A DNA stretch of 48,773 bases from Candidatus Heimdallarchaeota archaeon (GTDB lineage Archaea > Asgardarchaeota > Heimdallarchaeia > Heimdallarchaeales > Kariarchaeaceae). The position numbers and the translations under genes are program-made. The notes beneath the pieces were generated by a model that did not search any database, was not told the DNA's origin, and saw only the letters and a program-made list of their open reading frames with translations. Positions 53 to 3,780 of this stretch are shown here, one piece after another. The first letter of the stretch is position 1; each line of letters begins with the position of its first letter. The DNA lies in NCBI GenBank assembly GCA_015523565.1, contig WAKA01000177.1, positions 1-48,773 of the forward strand. The letters are read 5' to 3'.

Positions 53-631
53 ATGAGAAAATCCTCCAAGGTAATAATGGGCATTTCAATAATTCTATTC
101 TTGATGTTGACATCTACGGTTCATACAAATGCACTTCCAGTTTATTCTGAAAAGGAAGGTCCCCCTTACCCTTCCTTGCAAATCATCAAATGGATTGACG
201 TCACCGAGGATCATGTTAAGGTAGGTCAAACCATTAATGTGTACGTAAATATCACAAACTTTGGAGGATCTGCCGCGTTCAATGTAACTATTGTTGAACC
301 TATATTCCAAAACTTTTCAATTTCAAATCTTGAAGGATACAATCCGAAAAATTGGGTTCGAATGGATCCAGGGGCAAGCGTTTTCTATTCATTCCAGTTC
401 GCCTTTGAAAAGGCAGGGAATTACACAATAGAGCCAACAACTGCCCAATACACTGATGCAGAATTAAATGATTATTCCTCCAAATCAGGTTTTTTTGACT
501 TAAAGGTGTTGAAAGGGAACCCCCCTATAAGCAAGAAGGATGAATGGAAATTTGCTTTTTCACTTATGGGTGGTTTCATAGCCCTTCCAGTCATTTGGTT
601 AATTGCTAAAAAGTACATTATTGATAAGTAA
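53..631 (+). CDS. TRAP-beta (SSR2)-like type I membrane protein
   Basis: The 192-aa product has an N-terminal signal peptide (about 7-27), an extracytoplasmic beta-rich domain and one C-terminal membrane helix (about 168-187) followed by a short lysine-containing tail. This is the topology and length of eukaryotic TRAP-beta, a subunit of the complex that sits beside the Sec translocon. From memory of human SSR2 I can align the pattern V-x-G...N-x-G-x-SAA-x-x-V, a W-x-R-x-x-P turn and a KAG motif near the end of the domain. Several N-x-T sequons (NIT, NVT, NYT) lie in the exported domain. The gene is 48 bp upstream of a Get3 gene on the same strand. The alternative is a generic archaeal CARDB/DUF11-type adhesion domain, which shares the N-x-G pattern. 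The fold and topology are well supported; orthology to TRAP-beta is an inference. Confidence 0.6.
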   Translation: MRKSSKVIMGISIILFLMLTSTVHTNALPVYSEKEGPPYPSLQIIKWIDVTEDHVKVGQTINVYVNITNFGGSAAFNVTIVEPIFQNFSISNLEGYNPKNWVRMDPGASVFYSFQFAFEKAGNYTIEPTTAQYTDAELNDYSSKSGFFDLKVLKGNPPISKKDEWKFAFSLMGGFIALPVIWLIAKKYIIDK

Positions 632-679
632 ATATAAGGTGAAAACAAACTTCATATCAGATATTTCTCGGTGATTTTT

Positions 680-1666
680 ATGGTATTAAAGGGCTTAATG
701 GAAAATCCAGACAAAAAATTCATATTGGTTGGCGGTAAAGGAGGAACAGGTAAAACTACTTCTGCGGCTGCAATTGCCGTGTATTTCGCGGAAAGGGGAG
801 AGAAAACCCTTATCATCTCAACGGATCCTGCTCATTCCTTGGCTGATTCTTTTGACCAGCCATTGGGGAATAAAGAACCAACAAGGATAATCGGTGTAAA
901 CGGACAGCTTTATGGTATGGAAATTGATCCAGAACAGGCGTCTGGTGATTTTGCGGAAATCTTGAACATGTCTGGTGCCAATACGGATGACCTTGCAAAT
1001 ACTTTGGGTTCCATGGGTTTTGACGAGTTCAAAGATATGTTTGCAACCATGCCTCCAGGGGTTGACGAAGCATTGGCACTTGCAAAAGTAATCCAATTCA
1101 TTGAGTCTCCTGAGTACCAAGACTACAAACGGATTATTTTTGACACTGCTCCAACAGGGCATACCCTTAGATTACTTTCCCTCCCTGATTTTCTTGACAG
1201 TTTCCTTGGGAAAGCCATGAAACTCAGGGTCAAGATCAATAACATGTTTGCAGGATTCAAAAGCCTTCTAGGGATGGAAGCCCAAAGAGACAACACTATA
1301 GAGGCAATGGAAGCATTGAAAAAAACAATCATGAAAGTCAGGGAGTTTTTCCAAGATTCTAAAAGAACAGAATTCATCATTGTCACTATTCCTACCATAA
1401 TGGCCATCAATGAATCTGAACGACTGGCAGAGGAACTCCACATACAAAACATTGCAGTCAATAATGTCATTGTCAACCAAATCATGCCTGAAAATTTGGA
1501 TTGTAAATTCTGTAAGGCAAGGTCTGCTGGTCAAGCTCAAAACTTGGAATATATCAGAAACCTCTTTGTACAATTTAATCTAACAGAGGTTCCCTTCTTC
1601 GACCGGGAAATCCGTGGAGTCCCTGCATTAAGAATTATGGGTTCTGCATTGTTTGAAAGCAAATAA
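680..1666 (+). CDS. get3: Get3/ArsA-family ATPase, tail-anchored protein targeting factor
   Basis: A single-domain 328-aa ATPase of the Get3/TRC40/ArsA family. It has the deviant P-loop GKGGTGKTT (about 19-27), the switch I DPAHS motif (D49), the switch II DTAPTGHT motif (155-162) and a late CxxC pair (C275, C278). In eukaryotic and archaeal Get3 homologues that Cys pair binds zinc at the dimer interface. Get3 captures the C-terminal membrane helix of tail-anchored proteins in the cytosol and delivers it to the membrane. ArsA arsenic-pump ATPases usually have two ATPase halves; this has one, and no arsenic genes are nearby. A GTG at 671 could also start the frame, but a GGTGAT Shine-Dalgarno site at 670-675 lies just before the ATG at 680, so I chose that start. 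It follows the TRAP-beta-like gene. Confidence 0.88.
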   Translation: MVLKGLMENPDKKFILVGGKGGTGKTTSAAAIAVYFAERGEKTLIISTDPAHSLADSFDQPLGNKEPTRIIGVNGQLYGMEIDPEQASGDFAEILNMSGANTDDLANTLGSMGFDEFKDMFATMPPGVDEALALAKVIQFIESPEYQDYKRIIFDTAPTGHTLRLLSLPDFLDSFLGKAMKLRVKINNMFAGFKSLLGMEAQRDNTIEAMEALKKTIMKVREFFQDSKRTEFIIVTIPTIMAINESERLAEELHIQNIAVNNVIVNQIMPENLDCKFCKARSAGQAQNLEYIRNLFVQFNLTEVPFFDREIRGVPALRIMGSALFESK

Positions 1667-1749: not shown

Positions 1750-3780
1750 ATGTCAGATGAAATGATGCAAACTTCAAGAGCCATTCCAATAAATATCAGA
1801 ATGATATTGATTATTTTAATATTGATTGCGGCTCTCGGTATTCCCACATATTTATCCACCACCCAACAGACTAAGCTTGCAGAGGATGTGCAGGAAGGGC
1901 TAAGATTGCAAGAAAGGGACTTGAACATCTCTGCATCGCTTGAACAGGTAATTGGGACAATAAACGAATTGGCTAAAGAAAGTCAATTTTCTGCATACTT
2001 AAAATCTCATAGGGAAGAATTAGAAAATGAAACCGATTTATTCAAAATAAGGCAAGATATCATTATTACCGTTGCTGAAATAAATAACCTTTTGTTTGAT
2101 CGCCAAGCCGAAAAATATAATCTTGTTAATGTCAATTTGACATTTGAAGGGTTTCAAAACGCCGAAATGATTAAGGAATTATCTCAAGCCAAACGAATAA
2201 TCGAAACAAACATGACTACTAATTTGGAAGATCTTGCATCAAAAACGGACGAATACATTTCAAAAATAAATCAAGCGGCCATTGATCTTGCTTATATTGT
2301 CGGGCAACCTACATCTTCTGCAAATATCTCTGTTTCATTGACTGGAAATGCAACTGCAACCTTAAACTCATTGAAATCACATCTAAAATCAAAACTCTCT
2401 GCCGCTAAAAGTTCCAAGGACAATGAAACAATCATCTACGTAGTTGATACATTATATGAACTTGAAAATCTCAATAATCTTATCGATGACATAAATTCAT
2501 TGGTTCAAAAATACCTAACAGTGGCATTGACAGAAAGCCCTGAATCATTATTGGATTATTCGAAGAAATTCAAACAGTCATTTGAACTCATATCCTCCCA
2601 AGCTGATTTCTTATTGGACAAATTTTTAGACCCTACTGCTATTGGCTATTATGCGTTGCAAGCCGATGATCTTGTCTATATCCAAAACCTAGACCCCATG
2701 ATTAGAGGCAATACCACCCAAAAAGGCATGATTCAATATCTGAATTCATCATTGAATCTGGTGTTCGAAACGGAAAGCTTGATTGACCAAATAACTGATA
2801 TCCAATCCACATCATTGAAATCAGCCGTAAATAATATAATTATATTTTTGGAAACCATAAAGAGGGTGGTTCTCTTTGAATTGGATTCTTTTACCTTTAC
2901 TTTCAATACATATGTTAAATTCCGCTCTGCCGCTAACAATATTATCTTGTCTATCACTTTGGCCATCTTAGGTATTCTCGTGTTCGGAGGAACAATTCCA
3001 TTCCTCAACAGAGTCAGGAAAATTACCGTTAGACTGGACGACGGATTTCAGAAAATTGTCAATTATGACCTTTCAATCAAAAAATTTGATAAAATTGAAG
3101 GTGGTGAACTGGGAAGAATTCAATACGGTTTCAATAAAATGGTTGATGAGCTACAACTTATTCTCCAATCATTGGCAGATGCCAGTGAAACCTTGTCCTC
3201 AATTTCTGAAACAATGGCGTCAGGTTCACAGGAAGCTTCGGCATCAGTTACTGAGGTCTCTGACACAATTGCACAGATTTCATATGGTGCTTCTGAACAA
3301 AATAGGTTAATACAACAGCTTTCTGATTTGCTTAAAAAACACATGGATGAAGTCAATGAGGCATCTGTGAAAATCTCCGAGGCAAGTACCTTTGTCCAAC
3401 AAGTCGCAAAACGAACTAATATTCTTGGTCTGAACGCATCAATCGAAGCGGCCAAGGCAGGTCATTTTGGAAGAGGTTTCAATGTCGTCGCTGAAAATGT
3501 CAGGGAACTTTCCGAAGATACCAAAAGGTCTGCCAATGAGATTGCCTCACTTATTGAAACCATCTCACAGAACATTTCAAACACCGTTAAAACAGTGATT
3601 GAAGAAATGGAAGAAGCAAGAATGATCTCTGAAAACACTGCTTCAGGAACAGAAGAGGCAAATGCCGCCACTACGGAACAGGTGTCAATGCTTAGCGAGA
3701 TTAGTGAACAAGCCGCTGAAATTGCAAATATCGCAACAGAACTCAACTCTATCATGGCTCGCTTCAAATTCGCAAAATAA
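1750..3780 (+). CDS. Methyl-accepting chemotaxis protein
   Basis: The 676-aa product has a cytoplasmic N-terminus, a membrane helix (about 18-37), an extracellular helical sensor region of about 355 residues, a second helix (about 396-419), a HAMP segment, and a long coiled-coil signalling domain. The conserved hairpin tip is at about 554-590 (core N-I-L-G-L-N-A-S-I-E-A-A-K-A-G). In typical receptors this tip binds CheA and CheW. No cheA, cheW, cheR or cheB lies in this window. The sensor region is a helical bundle without a recognisable PAS or Cache core. The gene stands alone, with an AT-rich TATA-like stretch at about 1706-1716. The MCP assignment is firm; the ligand is unknown. Confidence 0.93.
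   Translation: MSDEMMQTSRAIPINIRMILIILILIAALGIPTYLSTTQQTKLAEDVQEGLRLQERDLNISASLEQVIGTINELAKESQFSAYLKSHREELENETDLFKIRQDIIITVAEINNLLFDRQAEKYNLVNVNLTFEGFQNAEMIKELSQAKRIIETNMTTNLEDLASKTDEYISKINQAAIDLAYIVGQPTSSANISVSLTGNATATLNSLKSHLKSKLSAAKSSKDNETIIYVVDTLYELENLNNLIDDINSLVQKYLTVALTESPESLLDYSKKFKQSFELISSQADFLLDKFLDPTAIGYYALQADDLVYIQNLDPMIRGNTTQKGMIQYLNSSLNLVFETESLIDQITDIQSTSLKSAVNNIIIFLETIKRVVLFELDSFTFTFNTYVKFRSAANNIILSITLAILGILVFGGTIPFLNRVRKITVRLDDGFQKIVNYDLSIKKFDKIEGGELGRIQYGFNKMVDELQLILQSLADASETLSSISETMASGSQEASASVTEVSDTIAQISYGASEQNRLIQQLSDLLKKHMDEVNEASVKISEASTFVQQVAKRTNILGLNASIEAAKAGHFGRGFNVVAENVRELSEDTKRSANEIASLIETISQNISNTVKTVIEEMEEARMISENTASGTEEANAATTEQVSMLSEISEQAAEIANIATELNSIMARFKFAK

Follow-up and report, generated by a model that had tools for sequence, protein, structure and literature searches.

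TRAP and Get3 belong to two separate pathways of the eukaryotic ER, co-translational translocation through Sec61 and post-translational insertion of tail-anchored proteins, respectively. Eukaryotic TRAP-beta (SSR2; PF05753; PDB 8B5L, 8BTK, 8RJC and 8B6L) is a protein of about 185 aa with a signal peptide, one Ig-like extracytoplasmic domain and one C-terminal transmembrane helix. The Ig domains of TRAP-alpha, -beta and -delta make up a cradle beneath the Sec61 pore, the C-terminal tail of TRAP-alpha anchors the ribosome, and the ancestral TRAP may, in the view of the authors of that work, have been a single-domain protein (PMC10279528). Three TRAP subunits (alpha, beta and gamma) were reported to be broadly distributed in Asgard archaea (Eme 2023; PMC10307638), and the same three subunits of MK-D1 were studied by Carilo 2024, where the signal peptide of MK-D1 TRAP-beta was found to work in human cells (PMC11417166). 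The protein described here is of the same family and comes from the same phylum. The main texts of PMC10307638 and PMC11417166 make no mention of Get3 or its linkage to TRAP-beta, and the organism studied by Carilo is a Lokiarchaeon; in the Lokiarchaeial loci that we read, Get3 follows a release-factor-1-like gene. We found no report of a TRAP-beta–Get3 linkage in the open-access literature; the new part is therefore the linkage to Get3 and not TRAP-beta itself.

The window, by which we mean the whole stretch of 48,773 bp that was analyzed, is one contig (C177) of a heimdallarchaeial genome (G000; 3.57 Mb, 90% complete). A gene for a TRAP-beta homologue (53-631) and a gene for Get3 (680-1666) are both located on the + strand near its start. 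The gap between them (632-679) is 48 bp, exactly as the first-pass annotation had it when it placed a TRAP-beta-like gene upstream of Get3. A sigma-70 and terminator scan of the window, using models that do not cover archaeal promoters, gave results near chance level.

The first gene encodes a 192-aa protein that shares with eukaryotic TRAP-beta the single Ig-like domain and the one C-terminal transmembrane helix, at about 20% identity, and differs from it in adjoining Get3. Residues 1-27 (53-133, + strand, as are the features that follow) read as a probable Sec signal peptide with a basic n-region, a hydrophobic core and the ending ...HTNA. An Ig-like beta-sandwich, presumably extracytoplasmic, occupies residues 41-155 (173-517) and is followed by a C-terminal transmembrane helix at residues 161-190 (533-622), which holds a hydrophobic window at residues 167-185; the cytosolic tail, KKYIIDK (608-628), has 7 residues. 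The AlphaFold2 model, made from a four-sequence alignment with a mean pLDDT of 70 (76-88 over most of the Ig domain), shows the same layout: a signal-peptide-like helix (residues 7-20), the sandwich with strands between residues 42 and 153, and a single transmembrane helix.

The search against Pfam, which had been proposed as a check on the annotation, returned TRAP_beta (PF05753) as the best match, well over its cutoff (E=1.7e-12; 47.5 bits, cutoff 22.4). BatD came next with 22.4 bits, under its own cutoff of 24.1 (E=1.9e-4), and DUF11, CARDB and DUF7507 each fell under their own Pfam cutoffs; we rejected CARDB, DUF11 and BatD as assignments for the window protein on these grounds. TRAP-alpha was also rejected, having no Pfam match to the protein and ranking under TRAP-beta in Foldseek. 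Searched alone against PDB, the window protein found TRAP-beta first, but only at E=0.024. A profile of 17 Asgard relatives (A1), all 17 of which match PF05753, gave three significant matches among all PDB sequences, each of them a ‘Translocon-associated protein subunit beta’ (E=4-5e-10), and the first non-significant match followed at E=0.056. Foldseek with the AlphaFold2 model placed TRAP-beta chains in the top five PDB matches (1.4e-7 to 1.3e-6), and VIA-align gave these chains Z scores of 12.8-13.8 over model residues 37-192, the transmembrane helix included, with the next fold at 9.6. Eukaryotic TRAP-beta is thus the best match of the Asgard protein by sequence profile and by predicted fold.

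We considered whether the protein might instead be a generic anchored surface protein of the Ig, CARDB or BatD type that resembles TRAP-beta and is unrelated to translocation. The Ig fold is common, as illustrated by integrins and macroglobulins (Z of about 9.5 to the model); PF05753 also picks up many large Asgard surface proteins of 450-1300 aa, and profile A1 also picks up DUF58-like proteins of 445 aa with a BatD-like Ig domain. The TRAP-beta claim consequently rests on profile, length, topology and fold combined. Taken together, these argue against a generic Ig protein, to which we assign little probability: BatD, DUF11 and CARDB match at 1.9e-4 or worse, TRAP-beta chains score 3 to 4 Z units over unrelated Ig folds, and length, topology and profile coverage all agree with TRAP-beta. 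The first-pass observation thus holds, and the protein is a true Asgard TRAP-beta homologue.

The second gene encodes a 328-aa ATPase of the Get3/TRC40 family. The open reading frame caller had set its start at a GTG (671), but a ribosome-binding-like GGTGA motif at 670-674, 5 nt before the ATG at 680, favors the latter. The product matched TIGR00345 (GET3/ArsA/TRC40) as a single domain (E=1.2e-85; 287.7 bits, cutoff 135), and Get3 structures were among its PDB matches. In a nine-genome Get3 alignment the P-loop, the switch motifs and the CxxC motif were kept: the deviant Walker A sequence GGKGGTGKT (731-757, + strand) was invariant except for one V/T position, and both cysteines (C275 and C278) of the zinc motif CKFC (1502-1513, + strand) were invariant throughout. 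The ArsA arsenical pump ATPase was rejected, given 133 bits for TIGR04291 against a cutoff of 650 and one domain in place of tandem two. These features are shared with Get3/TRC40 and the archaeal Get3-type ATPases (PDB 3UG6, 3ZQ6), from which the window gene differs by its linkage to a TRAP-beta homologue. By its sequence the product is a Get3 family member, and binding and insertion of tail-anchored proteins are predicted for it. Downstream of Get3, at 1750-3780, lies a gene for an MCP-like protein that is kept in several genomes of the window's family (f1) and of family f4.

Conservation of the pair, the other check proposed for the annotation, was examined across 227 Asgard genomes, with PF05753, Get3 and the TRAP-beta of the window as queries; searches of two selected sets of 30 and 71 genomes completed the listing for these, and coordinates were cross-read. 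Genome counts were read from tables of the matches listed, beyond which there may be a few more linked or unlinked genomes. The two genes were adjacent in at least 56 of the 227 genomes, corresponding to 56 of the 62 listed genomes in which both were located, and the adjacency spanned nine of the 12 families with both genes located. Among the matches listed, the adjacent genomes fell into families f1 (6), f3 (22), f4 (3), f5 (11), f6 (1) and f7 (7), which belong to the window's class (f1-f7), and into f26 (4, one of them with Get3 cut by a contig end), f27 (1) and f29 (1) outside that class. Three gene orientations were recovered: co-directional with TRAP-beta upstream of Get3 (f1, f3, f4, f26, f27 and f29), divergent with 83-95 bp between the genes (f5, Hodarchaeum and kin), and convergent (f6, 270 bp; f7, 462-545 bp with a 90-aa gene in between). 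Spacing was near zero in several f1 genomes, with 1 bp from the TRAP-beta stop to the Get3 ATG in the Heimdallarchaeota MAG B11T1B5. Both genes were present yet apart in f21, f23 and f24 (6 genomes among the matches listed), and one genome (f2) had Get3 without TRAP-beta among the matches listed. The recurrence in at least 56 of the 227 searched genomes means that the adjacency is not a product of chance. As a control, the genes lying up to five genes away from Get3 in the retrieved loci were grouped into clusters. TRAP-beta was common to 401 of 432 cross-family locus pairs, a figure that is not a rate, most loci having been chosen because the pair was present; what matters is the erosion of the remaining gene order, any other neighbor being common to 31 of the 432 pairs, 21 of which were f1-f4.

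The Get3 genes of Loki- and Thorarchaeia had neighbors other than TRAP-beta in the loci read. Inspection by eye placed Get3 directly after a gene resembling peptide-chain release factor 1 in three Lokiarchaeial loci (L167:4635-6954, L135:4511-6823 and L132:1169-3488), with an acetyltransferase-like gene two genes beyond in L167 and L135. A multi-TM protein of about 115-120 aa and an alkaline-phosphatase-like gene take the place of TRAP-beta near Get3 in f11 and f13 (L047:1066-1428 and L060:1074-1433 in Get3 orientation; L106), and a beta-CASP/metallo-beta-lactamase-like gene, also assigned by eye, follows Get3 in f9, f10, f27 and f29 (L046, L061, L257 and L258). One TRAP-beta–Get3 contig assigned to an f7 genome (G060:C32; L057/L092) is almost identical to f3 (G028) and is probably bin contamination.

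Upstream of the pair the window reaches a contig end, and its first 24 bases (1-24) recur unchanged as the final 24 of contig C198 of the same genome. Across this join the order reads membrane protein, Zn-ribbon membrane protein, signal peptidase I, acetyltransferase, pilin-like protein, TRAP-beta and Get3 (C198 region read as L274, G000:C198:8000-19925). The genes for signal peptidase I (TIGR02228 over cutoff), the acetyltransferase and the pilin-like protein lie on the same strand as TRAP-beta, and the acetyltransferase is of the ARD1/RimI N-terminal type (TIGR01575 over cutoff). An overlap of 24 bases is by itself a short join; much the same order occurs on single contigs in G039, B11T1B5 and the f4 genomes.

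The first-pass annotation had suggested that the adjacency marks an archaeal membrane-protein-biogenesis unit. The two families and their conserved linkage stand; the single functional unit is what we infer from that linkage. With moderate confidence, we favor the reading that TRAP-beta and Get3 are selected together as parts of one module for membrane-protein biogenesis, and the two may interact physically or functionally. In such a module TRAP-beta, with one membrane span and an extracytoplasmic Ig domain, would have its place next to the SecY channel and would help or stabilize it, as in the eukaryotic Sec61-TRAP translocon, an association carried over by analogy from eukaryotes. The part of Get3 would be to keep hydrophobic C-terminal segments covered while they are in the cytosol and to carry them to that same membrane. 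In the lineage of the window and the related f4, signal peptidase I and the ARD1/RimI-type acetyltransferase, which likewise act on nascent or exported proteins, would extend the module. Against it we count the separated genes of f21, f23 and f24, the different Get3 neighbors of Loki- and Thorarchaeia, the linked copy of f26, which is nearer to BatD, and the fact that Pfam models detected neither TRAP_alpha nor TRAP-gamma in the window's genome. Neither of the two models found anything over cutoff in any of the 227 Asgard genomes; distant-homology methods do find Asgard TRAP subunits (Eme 2023; PMC10307638). The window's genome also carries two EMC3_TMCO1 genes of the Get1/Oxa1 superfamily (L268 and L269), one of them in a 487-aa open frame and neither on the TRAP-beta–Get3 contig.

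The Get3-linked protein varies among families, some Asgard versions departing from eukaryotic TRAP-beta by long basic tails (f3) or by three domains (f7). The cytosolic tails are strongly basic in f3 (long, net +12 to +20), f26 (+9 to +10), f27 (+11) and f29 (+7). The f7 protein (L219, L221, L254 and L255) is TRAP-beta-like, about 500 aa in length, with three Ig-like units, one transmembrane helix and a basic tail, and is convergent with Get3. Genomes of f26 have one TRAP-beta-like gene close to a PRPP synthase-like gene and a second immediately upstream of Get3 (L013, L015 and L022 versus L045, L048 and L049); BatD scored over cutoff and better than TRAP_beta for the Get3-linked copy, and a better TRAP-beta is encoded at another site of the genome. 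For some Hodarchaeales TRAP-betas, BatD and DUF11 were also over cutoff, with TRAP_beta still on top.

These tails bear on the possibility that the linked protein serves Get3 as a receptor or tether in the membrane, in the manner of Get2 or CAML, and does not belong to a SecY-TRAP translocon. Get2 uses its tail as a tether for Get3, and a basic cytosolic tail on the Asgard protein would recruit Get3 in a similar way. It is Get3 itself that the gene is linked to, rather than SecY or another translocon gene, the tails of f3, f26, f27 and f29 are very basic, and in f26 the Get3-linked copy is split from the other TRAP-beta-like copy. We nevertheless consider a receptor rather unlikely, since the tail in the window's own family comprises 5-7 residues with a net charge of +1 to +3, those of f4 and f5 are short too, and gene linkage does not demonstrate contact. 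The basic tails of f3, f26, f27 and f29 could, by analogy, be ribosome anchors as well as Get3 tethers, the eukaryotic TRAP-alpha tail being a case of ribosome binding (PMC10279528). If the receptor reading were right, the protein would recruit Get3 to the membrane as the eukaryotic GET receptor Get1/Get2 does; it differs from Get1/Get2 by its Ig domain and one transmembrane helix.

The Get3 tree requires 5-6 changes of the ‘linked’ state, and the pair is accordingly either ancient, with later losses, or the product of more than one origin or move. The presence of linked Get3 rows in a few groups of the tree would allow a single inheritance with chance retention in some lineages, but an ancient common gene order that carries no function is very unlikely in view of the three orientations around Get3, the near absence of any other neighbor kept between families and the near-zero spacing in several f1 genomes.

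The linkage extends to the Hodarchaeales, a proposed sister group of eukaryotes. The f5 Hodarchaeales (G040-G050) have TRAP-beta genes divergent from Get3 with PF05753 values of 2.8e-14 and 2.5e-11 (L136:5222-5833 and L137:5153-5779, both on the - strand). For Candidatus Hodarchaeum mangrovi (2.8e-14), TRAP-beta chains were the sole PDB matches (E=0.004-0.006), and 11 of the 12 genomes of its family had the linked pair. Translocon ‘TRAPP’ components, which the context indicates to be TRAP, were listed among the eukaryotic signature proteins missing in Hodarchaeales on the basis of figure 3 of Eme (Forterre 2025; PMC12395588). Contrary to that listing, TRAP-beta is clear in Hodarchaeales as judged from the profile matches.

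The TRAP-beta–Get3 pair offers a small, testable two-gene system. A bolder version of the module, which we regard as speculative and on balance doubtful, would make Asgard TRAP-beta the membrane partner of Get3. Hydrophobic tails would then pass from Get3 to the SecY-TRAP-beta site or an insertase anchored at it; if true, what are separate Sec/TRAP and GET routes in eukaryotes formed a single pathway at one time. The conservation of such a pair in the lineage nearest to eukaryotes suggests a functional link between TRAP and Get3 that is older than the ER.
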